Assembly (NCBI GenBank): GCA_035550055.1
Contig: DASZRO010000109.1
Coordinates: forward strand, 1 to 54,546
Direction of reading: 5' to 3'
Length of the DNA: 54,546 bases
DNA from: Mycobacteriales bacterium
GTDB lineage: Bacteria; Actinomycetota; Actinomycetes; JAFAQI01
Shown here piece by piece: positions 2,345 to 11,204 of this stretch; the first letter of the stretch is position 1, and every line of letters begins with the position of its first letter. The notes under the pieces were generated by a model that was not told where the DNA came from, ran no database searches, and was given only the letters and a program-made list of their open reading frames with translations. Both the position numbers and the translations under genes were made by a program.

Positions 2345-3591
2345 GTGGACGAGGAATGGATGGCGGCCTCGCGCCCGGTCGCGGGCTCGTCTGTGAGCGG
2401 CGGTCAGGGCGAGTCCCTCATCGCCGAGGACCCGAACGGTCGACGGGTGTTCGTCAAGAGACTGAAATACAACGGGCGGCAGGCTGCCCGACGTCGATTC
2501 GTCCGTGAGGTCCGTTCCTACGAGACCCTCGAGCATGCGCAGTTGCCGAAGTTGATCGAGACCAACGTTGACCATTGGCGGGATCGCAAGCGGAAGCTGT
2601 ATCTGATACTCGAGGCGATCGACGGGCCCACACTGGCCGAGCGGATCGCGAGCGAGGGACCCCTGCTGCACGCAGACGCCACAGCCCTCATCTCGACGAT
2701 TCTCGCGACCTTGGAGTACTGCCATGAGAACACGTGGTGCACCGGGACATCAAGCCCGCCAACGTCATGCTTCGAGCCGGTAGTCCCGCCGACGCGGTGA
2801 TCGTCGACTTCGGCCTGTCCTTCAATTCCAGTGATCCGGATCAATCGGACCTCACACGCATCAACGAAGAGGTCGGCAACCGGTTCTTGCGCCTTCCCGA
2901 GCACTCGACGGGTGGACGGAGCCCGATCGCGGACGTCTGCCAATCGGCAGGACTGCTCATCTACGCCCTGACTGGGCACGAGCCGCGGACGCTGATCGAC
3001 GACGAGGGCCTCAAGCCTCACCAACGAGCGGCGATTCGAGGCATCCTGGCCCAAAGCCTGTCTGCCGGCCAATACCGAAGGCTGCAGTCAGTGTTCGACC
3101 GCGCCTTTGACGTCCGAGCAGCCACGCGCTACCCAACAGCCGGCATGCTGCGGAGTGCGATCATCCACGCGATGAGAGACGAGGACCCCGAACCGGGACT
3201 TGATGCGCTGCTAGCCCAGCTCGACGATCGCATCGCCGCCGAGGACCACCAGCAGGCGTCCGAGCACGCGACCTCGCTGAAGACGTTCGCGTCACAGATC
3301 GAGACGCTCGCGATGCGGTTCGCCGCAAGTCGCCAGCTGCAATGCGCGCGTGGCCGCGGGCCCGACGACTTTCTTGCACCGATCCCCTACGGCCACGTGA
3401 ACATGGCGCTCACGCCACCGCATGCGACCGGGGCGAAGAGCCTGGTCAGCTTTCGACTGGAGCGGTCAGCCGACGAACTCGTGGTCAAGATCGACGAGGA
3501 CGTCATCTGGCGAGGTATGAGTGTTAACGACCAGCTTGAACAAATCGTCGTCGAACGACTCGCTAGCCACTACCTCCACGGCAATCAGTAG
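2345..3591 (+). pseudogene. Ser/Thr protein kinase, broken by a -1 frameshift
   Basis: Two overlapping frames together encode one Hanks-type kinase of about 415 aa. The first frame (GTG 2345 to 2800) carries the N-lobe, with the ATP lysine (VFVKRLK) and the alpha-C glutamate (REVRSYE). The second (to 3591) begins at GTG 2734 with the catalytic loop VHRDIKPANVM, followed by the DFG motif (VIVDFGLSF). Adding one G near 2734 joins them as HENTVVHRDIKPANVM. No slippery heptamer is visible, so a one-base deletion or a sequencing error is likelier than programmed frameshifting. The C-terminal 150 residues are not recognisable and have no transmembrane segment, so a restored kinase would be soluble. 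Confidence 0.8.
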
Positions 3592-5314: not shown

Positions 5315-6655
5315 ATGGAGCCAACAGAATCTGCCGGTATGTGGTGGCTACCTGAGACCCCGGAAGCCAAAGTTCCCGGAGTTCTCAAGATCGATGAGCG
5401 CGGGAGCGCAAATCTTGAGTTGATCGGATGCTTTAAGGACATGTTTGCTGCCCCCACATCCGCCGGCAAACCAACACCGTTGACAAGCTCCGCCTTGGCC
5501 AAGGCGGGCAACTACGGTCGCATCTGCGGACAGTCCGGAACCGATGCGTACACCCTCGACAGCTGCCACCGAGGTCGCTTGTCGAGCGCCCTCTTCAACG
5601 GAATCGCGAGCGAAGAAGTCCGCGTTGGGCGCGTGTACAAAGGACTCTGGCTCGATCGAGACGAAAGCGCTTCGTTCGATCAGGCGGATGTACGACTCCA
5701 GTGGTTGCCGTTTTGGCTCATGGAATCAGCCATCGACGAGAACTGGACGTGGGAGGGCGAAGGCTCCGCTCGTACCCACAAAATGCAGATCAACGTGAAG
5801 GGACTTGCGTCCCGATCCTGTCGCCCATGGAAGGGCTGGACTGTCAGCTTGAACCACAGTGCGGGTCTCCGTGGCGACAGCGTCACCGGACGCTCGGTCT
5901 CGCAGGAGTATTACTTCACCGCGCGCACCACGCAGCCGGAACAGGTTGAAAGGCTCCTCAACGTCCTGTCTGACGTTCAGACGTTGGTGGCCTTCGGCGT
6001 GAACAGAACTGTCGGAATAGAGCGCATGACCCTTCGACACCCCGACGTTCATCCGCCGGATCGACCGCAACGTCGATATCGGACGCCGATCGACTTCGTC
6101 GTGCCGTGGTCATACCGCGACACCGACACAGCGAAGCGACTCACCGACCACGACATGGCATTCACATTCCCCCAGATCGGCGGCATGGCCGGCGTTCGAA
6201 AGTTCCTTCACGCTGCGACGAAACACAGGAGCTCACTCACCCGTGTGATCGCCAGCAGCATGGCGAAGGACATGTTCGTGTCTGATCAGTTGCTCCACCG
6301 AGCAGCCTCGCTTGAAGCGTTCGATCGCGTACGCACGAACACACGCAAGAAGAAGATCGATTTCAAGGATCGGCTGAAGAGCTCAGTTGCCTATGTGGGA
6401 TCGCCATTCACCACTCTGGTACGCGATACGGAGAAGTGGGCAACCCGGATCACGAAGGAGCGCAATGACGCTGCGCACACGTTAGGCCTAGGCAGCGACG
6501 CGGCTGATCAATACTTCCTGGCCCGGTCCCTGTATTGGCTGTATGTCTTGAGCATTCTCCGTGAGGCCAACACCCCAAAGGCCGCCTTCGTCCACATTGG
6601 AAGAAATCCGGAGTTCGAGTACGTCGCCGAACGCCTCACTGCAATGGGCTACTGA
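5315..6655 (+). CDS. apeA: ApeA-type HEPN antiphage (abortive infection) protein
   Basis: This 446-aa protein has the ApeA layout. The N-terminal domain opens with the family-like motif GMWWLPETPEAKVPG (residues 8-22) and is beta-rich to about residue 250. A helical C-terminal HEPN domain (about 280-446) carries R-x4-H in ERNDAAH (R383, H388). HEPN proteins with this motif are usually metal-independent RNases, and ApeA proteins protect bacteria from phage by abortive infection. ATG 5315 is the only start that keeps the whole N-terminal motif. It sits alone on the strand with no obvious antitoxin, as single-gene apeA loci do. The RNase active site appears intact. The call rests on motifs and could be tested by a profile search. 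Confidence 0.75.
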   Translation: MEPTESAGMWWLPETPEAKVPGVLKIDERGSANLELIGCFKDMFAAPTSAGKPTPLTSSALAKAGNYGRICGQSGTDAYTLDSCHRGRLSSALFNGIASEEVRVGRVYKGLWLDRDESASFDQADVRLQWLPFWLMESAIDENWTWEGEGSARTHKMQINVKGLASRSCRPWKGWTVSLNHSAGLRGDSVTGRSVSQEYYFTARTTQPEQVERLLNVLSDVQTLVAFGVNRTVGIERMTLRHPDVHPPDRPQRRYRTPIDFVVPWSYRDTDTAKRLTDHDMAFTFPQIGGMAGVRKFLHAATKHRSSLTRVIASSMAKDMFVSDQLLHRAASLEAFDRVRTNTRKKKIDFKDRLKSSVAYVGSPFTTLVRDTEKWATRITKERNDAAHTLGLGSDAADQYFLARSLYWLYVLSILREANTPKAAFVHIGRNPEFEYVAERLTAMGY

Positions 6656-7199: not shown

Positions 7200-9035
7200 T
7201 CAATCGTCGAGCCGTGAGGACTCGTCGGCTCTCAGGTACTCTTCGACCGACACGCCACCCTCTTCGAGCTGTCCGACCATCTCGGCACGCAATGTCTCGT
7301 ACGTAGTCGAGTTATAGTTAAACCTCCGGCCCGAGATTCGGTTTGGTCGGCCGAGTGTGCTGGCACGCTCACCGTGGTCCACGAGAAGTGCAACGCCCAG
7401 CGCCTTGGCACATTCGTCGAATGTTTCGTTTCGCAGAACGTCTGCCGGCCTGACATCCAACTCCAAGAAAGCCAGATCACGGGTCGGCTGTCGAGACTGC
7501 ATCTTGCTAAAGAGATCGATCGTCAGCTTGTCGAGTCGGGCGGCGCGCTCGGTCGCCGCCTTTCGCGTCTCGCGAATGTTCAATCCGCGATGCAAGCCCT
7601 GATGCACGTAGACAGCGCCAGACCGGGGAAGGACAAGCTCGCTGTCTTCTGACTTGAACCGAGTCGAACCAGCGTCACCGATACGGACACCAATCACGGA
7701 GTACTCGAAGAGCCTTTCTAACAGGGCCTGGATTCCAAACTGTTTGACGAGTTGCGGCGCCTTACGCTCGATCACCTTTTGCAAGTCTCGCAGCGAGTCG
7801 TAGCGATGCCGTTCTTGGCGCAGGCATTCCACCAGGGGATCGAGCTCGGGGAAAACCTTCTGAAATTCCTGCTTCAGGTCCGCGACTTTCCACCTGCTGT
7901 AACGCGCTTCGGCCGACCGAACATCGTCTTTCGTTACGGAGGTGGCACTCGGGCCGGCCTCCTGGAGACACTCGTCAAGAAACTGAAGAACCTCACGAGG
8001 TCGAAGAAAGGTCCGCCGCACGATGTAGCCAAACGGGCTGATCGATCCCCGCATTTCGCCTGACTCAAAGAGTTCGTCGATGGTCAGACCCTGTGGTAGT
8101 CGTCTGTCGACCATTTCCTTTAGTAGCTCGATGTTCCAAACGATTGTTTGCTCTGTTCGCCTGTGCTTGTCCTTATCGTCAAAGCGCAGATCGTCGTAGA
8201 TGTCGGACCGAAGGAATACCACGACGCGAATGCCTAAGCTCCGCGCATTTGGTGTATTCTGGTCGTTGATTTCCTTTGTCGCCTTTAGCAGTCCTATGAG
8301 AAGAGAGCGGCTCTCCTCCGTGCCATCCCACGAGTCATCGAGACGGTCGATTGCGACAATCAGGCCGCATTCCTCAACGAGCACTCCAAGGTTTTTGAAG
8401 AGCGCCTCTGTCGCGGCGGGTGCTAGTGCGACCTGTTTCGTTTCTTCTCTCGATAGACCGACGCCAAATCCAAAAGCAGAGAAATTGAAACTCGTCAGCC
8501 CTTTGACGATCGAAGCCGCGGTACTCAGCAGCGAGGGCTGAACGCGGCCGAAGTTGTCGGAAACAAACGTCCTTAAGATCTCAAGACTCTCTTGCGACTT
8601 CGGAAGCCAACTTCGGTCGAGGGCGAGCATTGCCCCCACCGCCTCGACCGCGAGAGTAAGTTTCCACGCATTCGTATGGGCCTGCTCGCTAAGCAAGCCT
8701 TGCTCCTTGTACTCCCGCAAAGCAGACCATGCGTACTGGTCTGGGCGGACCGCGAGCACCGCCTGATCGTCTGTTGCATGAGCCGCGGCCAACCGTGGAA
8801 GCTCACGGAAGAGCGCAGACTTTCCGCTGCCCTTTCGACCAAGGAAGAGTGTCCGTCGTCCCTGTAGCGCTGACTGGACATACGGCGTCTCAACAAAATA
8901 CGCCTCCAACCTTGGATCGCTCTCGGCATCGATACCGCCCAGGTCAATATGGGCGGTGGTGAGGTTGAGTTCGACCAAGTTCACCAGTCCATCCTCGCCC
9001 TCATGATCAGCCGTGTCACGAGTCTCGTAGAGCAT
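7200..9035 (-). CDS. P-loop ATPase, Sll1717-like (KAP/STAND-type), 611 aa
   Basis: The N-terminal half is a P-loop ATPase. Walker A is GRKGSGKS (66-73) and Walker B is LIVAIDRLDD (225-234). A sensor-like VVVFLRSDIYDD follows, then a helical domain ending near residue 400. The second half is a mixed helical domain of unknown role. The organisation matches large prokaryotic ATPases such as the Sll1717 family, often found in defence and mobile regions. The gene is alone on its strand and starts within a truncated AlbA_2 remnant, so it may have lost a partner or its original promoter. All ATPase motifs look intact. The exact family is my inference. Confidence 0.7.
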   Translation of the reverse strand: MLYETRDTADHEGEDGLVNLVELNLTTAHIDLGGIDAESDPRLEAYFVETPYVQSALQGRRTLFLGRKGSGKSALFRELPRLAAAHATDDQAVLAVRPDQYAWSALREYKEQGLLSEQAHTNAWKLTLAVEAVGAMLALDRSWLPKSQESLEILRTFVSDNFGRVQPSLLSTAASIVKGLTSFNFSAFGFGVGLSREETKQVALAPAATEALFKNLGVLVEECGLIVAIDRLDDSWDGTEESRSLLIGLLKATKEINDQNTPNARSLGIRVVVFLRSDIYDDLRFDDKDKHRRTEQTIVWNIELLKEMVDRRLPQGLTIDELFESGEMRGSISPFGYIVRRTFLRPREVLQFLDECLQEAGPSATSVTKDDVRSAEARYSRWKVADLKQEFQKVFPELDPLVECLRQERHRYDSLRDLQKVIERKAPQLVKQFGIQALLERLFEYSVIGVRIGDAGSTRFKSEDSELVLPRSGAVYVHQGLHRGLNIRETRKAATERAARLDKLTIDLFSKMQSRQPTRDLAFLELDVRPADVLRNETFDECAKALGVALLVDHGERASTLGRPNRISGRRFNYNSTTYETLRAEMVGQLEEGGVSVEEYLRADESSRLDD

Positions 9036-9253
9036 GTCTCACGCGTAGGAGCGACAAAGCGAGAAAGAGAACCACCGCGAGTGTTGGCCATTGCCGCAAC
9101 GTCCTTGCAGAACTCACGAGCGGCTTCGACTTCGGGTGTAGGAAGGTCGCGGTTCCAGTCAAGACCATCGGATTCGGGCAGTACTCGGTCGACGGCACCA
9201 TCGAGTCCTTCGAGACCAAGGTCCGCGTGTAGACGCGACCACATGATCGCCAT
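9036..9253 (-). pseudogene. Truncated Schlafen/AlbA_2 domain remnant
   Basis: From ATG 9253 the frame encodes LHADLGLEGLD, then SDGLDWNRDLPTP and FCKDVAAMANTRGG. This is the N-terminal core of an AlbA_2 (Schlafen-like, formerly AAA_4) domain, which is usually followed by a hydrophobic strand and several hundred residues. Here the similarity stops right after TRGG (about 9070), and the frame runs into the ATPase start without conserved features. A deletion or insertion junction must lie near 9070. Confidence 0.6.
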
Positions 9254-9459: not shown

Positions 9460-10239
9460 ATGCTCAAACTCGTGGATGGCATTGAGCAGGGACGCTCGGT
9501 CACCCTGTTCCATGGCACAACGAGATCGGCGGCCGCGCGCATCGTCCGTGAGGGGTGGGAGCAACGCCCGGCGCTGGTGATCATCGAGCAGGTAGCTGCC
9601 GAGTGGGACGTGGACGTGTCAACACTCGGAGAGAACATTCGTGACTACGCCGGGTTTGGGCTCTTCTCGGGACGAGGGGCGACGGTGTCGTTCGACACGG
9701 ATCCCATCGCCACAGCGCACAGCTGGGCTCAGCGCAGTCCAGAGACGCGATGGGAGGCGCTGTGGGCAGTGTGGCGCCTACGGAACCCGCGGTTGGCAGA
9801 AACCTGGACCACCGAAGCGCAAGGGCGAGCCTGGGTACACCAGCAGATGAGCAATGACTTCGCTGCGATGATCACTTGGACAACGACCTACGGGGAGTTA
9901 GTTGCCTTGGGAGCTCGCCGAGGAGGGTTCGGGCGGTCTAGTGGCCTCGCGGCAGTCTGGGAGGGCGGAAGTATGGAGATCGAGGTCTCGGCACCATTCC
10001 GGCCGGAGCCCGGCGCCATTGAGACTGAACACGTCGACCGCATAGTGGACGCTCAACTTCTCTCTTATCTCCTCGGCGTTGACGTGCGCGACCTCGCCGA
10101 CCTACGAGAGTCCGGCCAGCTGCCAGCGCCCGATTCGGAAGCCTTCGAACTCCGAGTCGGCGAGCGTCGGCCTTGGTGGTGGACTTCCTCGGTTGAGCCG
10201 CTGCTCCAGGAAGCATCAGGCGGTCGTGAGGTGCACTGA
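9460..10239 (+). CDS. Possible ADP-ribosyltransferase-fold protein (259 aa)
   Basis: The N-terminus has VTLFHGTTRSAAARIVREGW (residues 14-33). This resembles the first strand and NAD-contact motif (HGT) of ADP-ribosyltransferase-fold enzymes, where a tyrosine or phenylalanine precedes the histidine and a helix ends in xxGW/GF. A later segment (GLFSGRGATVSFDTDPIATAHSW, split at about residue 70) fits the second core strand. The catalytic glutamate expected near the C-terminal part cannot be assigned; EIEVSAPF near residue 172 is one candidate. It is soluble with no signal peptide, and the end is Trp-rich (PWWWTSS). It could act in defence or as a toxin; no antitoxin is visible nearby. Function unproven. 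Confidence 0.5.
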   Translation: MLKLVDGIEQGRSVTLFHGTTRSAAARIVREGWEQRPALVIIEQVAAEWDVDVSTLGENIRDYAGFGLFSGRGATVSFDTDPIATAHSWAQRSPETRWEALWAVWRLRNPRLAETWTTEAQGRAWVHQQMSNDFAAMITWTTTYGELVALGARRGGFGRSSGLAAVWEGGSMEIEVSAPFRPEPGAIETEHVDRIVDAQLLSYLLGVDVRDLADLRESGQLPAPDSEAFELRVGERRPWWWTSSVEPLLQEASGGREVH

Positions 10240-10347
10240 CGCTGTTGAGGCACAGCGCCTGCTCACCGGGATGAGTGGATGTCGATGGTCGCAACCGTGT
10301 GTTCGAAGGTCTCGCAGCCGACGATGCCAGGACCATCTGATCAGCAG

Positions 10348-11204
10348 TCAGAACATGGTCTTTACAACCCGCTCCACGCCGCTCACTAGCTCCTCAACAT
10401 CTTCGGCCGTGGGCTCGTGGTCTCCGCTGTGGGCGCAAAGATTCCGCATGTCTGCAGGGTGCTGAACCGTCGCCACTGTGGGACGTCGTAGACCTCAGAG
10501 TCTTTGAGCGCATCGTTCAAGACCGCGAGCGTCGCCTTCCGGCGCCCTAGAGATACTGCATGTTGCTGGACAACCATGCCAAGGTCTTGTTCGAGAACAA
10601 CGCCCGCGATCGCGCCTGCGGCGCGAACGTGTTTGGCCTTGAGCACTCTCGCGCTCCGTCTATTTCCGCGTCAAAGACTCCTGCCTGCAACTCGCGAACA
10701 ATGTCGGCGAGGAGCGAGTCGAGCCTTCGTTCAGCAGTCCTGAGGATTGCGACTTGCTGCTCGAACTTGCCCAGTGCACCGGCGCGGGTATCGAACACAG
10801 GCTCTTCTGAGGTAGCCGTGGGTCACGGTGACTTTGCTGATGTAGTCGGCGATGCCGTAGGTGATGACGTCGAGGTCATCGCTCGCGCGCCGGGTCGGCT
10901 AGTACAGCGTTAGAAACTCGTCGATCCGATCCGGCAAGAGTAACCGGACCGTGGGAAGCGCAGCCGAGTACCAGTCGTTGTACTCCCTGCCGAAGTTCGG
11001 CTTCTTCTTGTCCCGCAGAGGACCAACAGGGGTCTCGAGGGCGGCATCTACCTTGGGGTCCGCCTTCTTAGCCTTGCGAGTCGGCTTGCCCTCACCTTCG
11101 AGCCCTTGCCGCCGTGATATGTGCCGGATGCTGTGGAAGTACGCCTTTAACAGACTGGCGGGGGGCCTATCGCTTGCGCGATTGATCCTTCTGCGCTGCC
11201 ACAT
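10348..11204 (-). pseudogene. Decayed HEPN-like gene (one nonsense, three frameshifts)
   Basis: Four pieces read in order on the minus strand. Piece 1 ends in PTVRLLLPDRIDEFLTLY at a TAG (10899-10901). The same frame continues as DDLDVITYGIADYISKVTV. A frameshift leads to EQQVAILRTAERRLDSLLAD and FDAEIDGARE. A one-base deletion then leads to LKAKHVRAAGAIAGVVLE and NDALKDSEVYDVPQWRR. Another leads to MRNLCAHSGDHEPTAEDVEE and a TGA at 10348-10350. The RNLCAH motif (R-x4-H) in a helical C-terminus resembles HEPN-like domains. Restored, it would be about 250-280 aa. The true start may lie after 11204 because the N-terminus overlaps a small ORF. Confidence 0.65.

Follow-up and report, generated by a model that had tools for sequence, protein, structure and literature searches.

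We analysed the gene at 9460-10239 in a window of 54,546 nucleotides, positions 1 to 54,546 of an actinobacterial contig. The left part of this window is a lower-GC island, with a GC content of 0.55 to 0.63 over ~3.5-11.5 kb compared with 0.66 to 0.75 over 12.5-24 kb, and the gene lies within it, among the following features:

2345-2797 and 2734-3591, plus strand: PD-T4-6-like kinase in two overlapping frames, as by a frameshift (PADLOC E 1.7e-35 and 2.5e-70)
5315-6655, plus strand: ApeA/HEPN protein (ApeA_NTD1, Pfam E 2.6e-25; HEPN just below the cut-off, E 9.8e-5)
7200-9035, minus strand: Sll1717-family P-loop ATPase (NCBIfam E 3.4e-84; phrog_13260 E 2.1e-32)
8981-9253, minus strand: short ORF with FCKDVAAMANTRGG (Pfam matches below the cut-off: VGCC_alpha2 E 0.0092, SLFN_AlbA_2 E 0.074)
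9460-10239, plus strand: coding sequence of a putative H-class ADP-ribosyltransferase (ART)-like protein of a rare, unnamed family, 259 amino acids (homologue; best of six frames)
10351-11204, minus strand: one decayed gene with pieces in several frames, read by eye

The gene for the Sll1717-family ATPase starts 425 bases from the gene under study and is divergent from it; its product matches an anti-phage protein model only weakly (E 3e-8, far below the cut-off). By eye, the short ORF at 8981-9253 looks like the remnant of a Schlafen AlbA_2 domain gene. The piece at 10902-11204, part of the decayed gene on the right, gave no Pfam match. The original prediction had placed the gene between defence genes with no known partner. 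The first part of this description holds on the left, where the PD-T4-6-like kinase, the ApeA/HEPN protein and the Sll1717-family ATPase lie, and fails on the right, where the flank reads as decayed; on the left, too, the immediate flank holds the remnant-like ORF. The second part stands, the gene being without a co-directional neighbour.

The reading frame itself runs as had been predicted, from an ATG at 9460 to a stop codon ending at 10239 on the plus strand, giving 259 codons plus stop and a protein of 259 amino acids with LFHGTTRSAAARIVREGW at residues 16-33. On length alone the open frame of 271 codons is not rare and proves little, since frames of at least 271 codons appeared in 10.6% of 1000 Markov simulations (2.5 kb, local composition). 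The frame ranked above the other five under two codon models trained on the window's own genes, by a modest margin. We accept the ORF as a real gene because residues 8-169 are homologous to a mycobacterial protein from genome G408 (38% identity, E 8e-24), and to judge from this alignment it encodes a real protein of a rare, unnamed family. The parts of the gene on which the remaining analysis turns are:

9481-9966, plus strand: part common to the mycobacterial relatives, residues 8-169 (38% identity, alignment)
9505-9558, plus strand: candidate ART motif I, LFHGTTRSAAARIVREGW, residues 16-33, with the His18 codon at 9511-9513 (alignments, profile comparisons)
9682-9729, plus strand: tentative ART motif II, TVSFDTDPIATAHSWA, residues 75-90 (by eye only, without profile support)
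9721-9777, plus strand: best conserved family block, S88 to R106, SWA.R.PE..WEALWAV.R (invariant columns)
9976-9984, plus strand: E173 and E175 (MEIEV), hypothetical catalytic glutamates (position only)

Searches of family libraries with the window protein returned no match in Pfam or in PADLOC 2.0.0 (5027 models) at E up to 1, and none in PHROGs at E up to 5. Its sole NCBIfam match up to E 5 was KptA, over residues 9-33, at a non-significant E of 0.14. Four members of the family, searched against Pfam, NCBIfam, PADLOC and PHROG at E up to 10, reached only E 0.056 at best. PF01885 (KptA/Tpt1) was matched neither in the search with the window protein nor in that with four members, and PF12120 (Arr-ms) was likewise absent, the limit being E 1 in the first search and E 10 in the second. 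Matches to cyclodextrin glycosyltransferase in the PDB (E 0.34-0.71) were taken as chance. As the family is missing from four libraries, automatic annotation would probably call its members hypothetical. A narrow search of the literature on ARTs in defence, and on type ISP or mycobacterial settings, returned no description of the family.

The family is rare. Among 396 phylum genomes the single strong foreign match was in G408; at E up to 0.1 as many as 41 of the 396 gave matches, the window's own genome and G408 included, and the weak ones among them (E 6.8e-4 and worse, which covers every foreign match other than G408) were left out of the count of relatives. No match at E up to 0.01 was present in the 98 other genomes nearest to that of the window. 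When the G408 protein served as the query, three of 248 genomes of its genus, G408 included, matched at E up to 1e-4. A pattern scan derived from a three-sequence alignment, over one genome from each of 84,980 species, yielded 204 candidate stretches, three of which encode relatives: locus L026 in [Mycobacterium] fortunisiensis, L027 in Mycobacterium sp. OTB74 and L028 in Mycolicibacterium austroafricanum. The copy at L026 and that of G408 are taken to be one and the same. A further copy, split by a frameshift, lies in G593 (locus L040), a genome of the same genus as G408. With E up to 0.001 as the limit, profile searches of 393 class genomes retrieved only that of the window and G408, and those of 397 genomes of the order of G408 retrieved only G408 itself; these searches score six candidates per genome, few enough that distant members may be missed. 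No relatives were added by 21 genomes around G408, by genome contigs scanned with the window protein alone, or by phages, plasmids and viral contigs.

One partial match stands apart. At L025 1501-1650, in genome G511, 49 residues resemble the C-terminal part of the family at 47% identity (E 6.1e-7), a second match that is perhaps a remnant and that we left out of the count of relatives.

The mycobacterial copies are under purifying selection: dN/dS ranges from 0.22 to 0.48 across their six pairs, three of which use the N-terminal piece of the frameshifted G593 copy. In pairs that include the window gene, silent sites are saturated (dS 1.9 to 2.3).

We then compared the N-terminal motif with established ARTs. 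The window protein has His18, and so does each of the four mycobacterial copies seen: the residue is invariant in the four-member alignment and found also in the copy from G593. The family profile was compared by hhalign with the NAD lobe of seven KptA proteins of the same class, selected by a filter that required HGT and that all seven loci passed. This comparison scored 26.8 (P 0.0017, hhalign probability 15.3%) over 23 columns, in which V.VFHGT..S.A..I...GF.P of the family lies in register with LYHGT.......I...GL.PM. None of 200 column-permuted controls, which probe motif order and not common descent, reached 26.8 (maximum 21.7); a reversed template scored 11.5, and full-length KptA gave P 0.0039. 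The second template comprised eight Arr proteins (of the 16 matches listed, 11 loci were processed and eight passed the motif filter), an alignment chosen to hold motif I because its filter likewise required HGT. Here the family profile scored 25.6 (P 0.004, hhalign probability 8.5%) over 13 columns, and again none of 200 column-permuted controls was as high (maximum 21.1). As a yardstick we used KptA against Arr, two accepted ART families, which scored 18.4 (P 0.02, probability 2.3%); the family profile exceeds this value with both KptA and Arr.

With the window protein left out, the three mycobacterial members scored 24.9 (P 0.0034) against KptA and 26.7 (P 0.0024) against Arr; the window protein alone scored 22.7 (P 0.0061) against KptA and was weak against Arr (16.7, P 0.085). 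Singly, among 184 ORFs from the window and four loci, the five members occupied ranks 2 to 6 against KptA (22.7, 22.2, 20.9, 19.7 and 19.4, the lowest score being shared with an unrelated ORF), in each case through FHGT. Rank 1 fell to an unrelated ORF that scored 25.7 against another part of KptA, above every single family member, and single scores of this size therefore occur by chance. Against Arr, one member came first of the 184 (29.3) and another ninth (18.1), the other three, the window protein included, lying outside the top ten. These comparisons, in which the signal is carried by only 13 to 23 columns, support the proposal of an N-terminal motif that resembles motif I of the H-class enzymes. 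The original prediction that the N-terminus resembles the NAD-binding start of ARTs is thus borne out at the level of the in-register match to both KptA and Arr.

Our searches also brought up a PARP-like protein of 154 amino acids in a phylum genome (L005 1261-1725, plus strand; Pfam PARP E 2.6e-6), which carries an FHGT motif similar to the one in the window protein; a weak match of the FHGT stretch in the phylum genome search (E 0.0016) falls within it. Searching with this protein found nothing, and searches for additional ART profiles with ART-PolyVal and DUF3990 gave matches in one of 149 and none of 80 genomes, respectively.

Beyond motif I the resemblance ends. The family profile scored 11.9 against the rest of KptA after motif I, a value equalled by 46 of 150 controls and hence noise. 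The second motif was placed by eye, and tentatively puts F78 where H-Y-E enzymes have a tyrosine. The block SWA.R.PE..WEALWAV.R is common to the four aligned members and differs at one position in the G593 copy (WETLWAV); no counterpart could be placed in ARTs. AlphaFold2, run with four sequences, gave a mean pLDDT of 44.3 and a pTM of 0.41 for the window protein, and 38.6 and 0.30 for the L027 protein, both models containing helices only and no strands. The residues with the best scores are helical in both models; in that of the window protein they form the stretch 41-60 (block means 76 and 78). Both models are too poor to be informative on the fold, and we did not use them in a fold search because low-confidence models give meaningless matches.

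These observations bear on whether the protein is an ART at all. It could instead be a small protein, largely helical and of unknown fold, whose FHGT is a chance resemblance, as the strandless models, the confinement of the signal to motif I, the low hhalign probabilities and the unrelated ORF at 25.7 would all allow. Against this, the KptA and Arr profiles pick out the same stretch in register, with none of 200 controls reaching either score, all five members hold places 2 to 6 among the 184 ORFs against KptA, and models of this quality favour no fold. We consider the chance resemblance somewhat unlikely, and an ART-type enzyme the probable identity of the protein, as far as sequence comparison can indicate.

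The C-terminal part of the protein is unlike that of its relatives. Local alignments of the last ~90 residues with the relatives gave p values of 0.06 to 0.74, and 198 of 300 shuffles scored as well in a C-terminal profile scan, so no conserved catalytic glutamate can be named. In this the original prediction, which had left that residue unassigned, agrees with the outcome of MAFFT, local alignment and the C-terminal profile scan, all of which failed to place it. An alignment of MEIEV with PEWLV is attractive by eye, but with these three methods failing on the C-terminal part we do not claim it. We also considered whether a frameshift could explain why this part diverges; this was not supported, the three plus-strand frames of 9900-10420 holding no recognisable mycobacterial-type part.

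The divergent C-terminus raises the question of whether the window copy is decaying or inactive cargo that keeps the shared part and has lost its functional C-terminal part. Such a history would fit the ~90 residues that do not match the relatives, the decayed look of both flanks by eye and the frameshift in the G593 copy. It sits poorly with a frame that is open over 271 codons, with the lack of any recognisable mycobacterial-type C-terminal part in the plus-strand frames of 9900-10420, and with purifying selection on the mycobacterial copies. We regard decay as very unlikely.

We also examined the loci of the relatives. Four of the five loci (the window, L027, L028 and L040) have defence or restriction genes no more than 10 kb away, a figure that is a description and not a test against background. 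At L027 the end of a type ISP restriction enzyme gene lies 2.5 kb upstream of the family gene (Type_ISP_C E 2.5e-98), and at L028 the upstream genes include HsdM at ~4 kb and a YhcG nuclease at ~7 kb. At L040 the C-terminal part of a type ISP enzyme lies ~1.5 kb upstream (E 1.5e-89) and an ApeA/HEPN protein ~5 kb upstream (E 3.2e-14). At L026, where the contig ends 45 bases before the gene, there is only a weak defence-like ATPase ~7 kb off (E 1.4e-6). Of the four mycobacterial copies, three have a polymorphic toxin gene at a distance of 7 kb or less, and these loci may therefore simply be variable regions:

L026 2370-3812, minus strand: GH-E polymorphic toxin gene
L027 10332-12368, plus strand: GH-E polymorphic toxin gene
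L040 1193-3481, plus strand: Tox-REase-5 polymorphic toxin gene

A neighbour gene conserved in other genomes, raised in the original prediction, did not emerge: the genes upstream of the family gene in L027, L028 and L040 are unlike one another by eye. At L027 the family gene overlaps the end of an ORF of 158 amino acids that has no Pfam match at E up to 0.01; at L028 use of the first start gives an overlap of a few bases with a short ORF, which has no PADLOC match. By eye, no shared antitoxin is visible at the window, L027, L028 or L040, the fifth locus, L026, being truncated by the end of its contig. Immediately upstream of the G593 copy, at L040 9783 to ~10607 on the minus strand, lies a gene with WYHSSTRADWPP and HLGT that appears ART- or RES-like by eye; it has no significant Pfam match, the best being DUF6699 at E 0.095.

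The mixed content of these loci is relevant to a further explanation, in which the protein is an ART-fold enzyme outside defence: it would act on a small molecule, in the way that Arr acts on rifampin, or on a cellular target, and its place in variable islands would be incidental. Its motif I does resemble that of Arr, which the available portion of PMC7827354 describes as a drug-modifying ART, and islands gather unrelated cargo, as the polymorphic toxin genes near three mycobacterial copies illustrate. Set against this, no member matches Arr-ms (PF12120), and defence genes occur within 10 kb in four of the five loci. We think a role outside defence quite unlikely.

We favour, at about even chances, the reading in which the window gene encodes a single-gene, H-class ART-like defence or conflict effector that is kept in defence islands. 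In such an enzyme His18 would hold NAD+ as in H-Y-E enzymes, and a C-terminal glutamate, E173 or E175 in the window protein and the glutamate of PEWLV in the mycobacterial proteins, would cleave it. The ADP-ribose might then pass to protein, nucleic acid or a small molecule, or NAD+ might simply be spent; the likely role would be that of a defence or conflict effector. As no adjacent antitoxin is seen, the protein would need to be kept inactive until a trigger arrives, or else to act on something foreign.

DarG is a macrodomain antitoxin. Among the Pfam-scanned neighbours there is no macrodomain gene, in which our candidate differs from DarTG; the likeness, an ART in bacterial defence, is a works-like comparison only, made by description and not by sequence (accessible text of PMC11543638 and PMC9967889). 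The same holds for CmdT of CmdTAC, an ART that serves as an anti-phage effector: compared by description and not by sequence, it works like our candidate, and according to the text available from PMC11618068 the system has an antitoxin and a chaperone, whereas the window gene lacks a co-directional neighbour. KptA/Tpt1, the RNA 2'-phosphotransferase (PF01885), has the same motif I: 23 columns align in register, with [FY]HGT ahead of I...G.[P]. It differs in having ~100 residues before HGT, compared with 17 in the window protein, in showing no similarity after motif I, and in its Pfam family, which the window protein does not match. In KptA the N-terminal RNA lobe carries the first residues (Arg, His) of the essential Arg-His-Arg-Arg tetrad, as given in the accessible part of PMC6333775; with only 17 residues before HGT, the window protein has no room for this lobe. 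Arr, the rifampin ADP-ribosyltransferase (PF12120), shares motif I with its FHGT; the window protein is about twice as long, aligns over 13 columns and has no PF12120 match.

We also put forward, tentatively and as an unlikely proposal in its full form, that the family represents a new class of solitary defence effector of the H-class ART type. Its motifs I and II would be separated by ~40 residues of helical insert, its C-terminal part would change fast, and it would be kept in the defence islands of actinobacteria (two cases near ApeA and two near type ISP restriction) under antitoxin-free control.

ART effectors in defence are already known (CmdT, PMC11618068; DarT, PMC11543638 and PMC9967889), and as described in the available portions of these papers, the ARTs of phage defence that we met in the literature come with antitoxins. 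If our reading is correct, mycobacteria and another actinobacterial lineage keep in their defence islands an ART family that stands alone; this would be an added type of effector, and would raise the question of how such an effector is kept silent.
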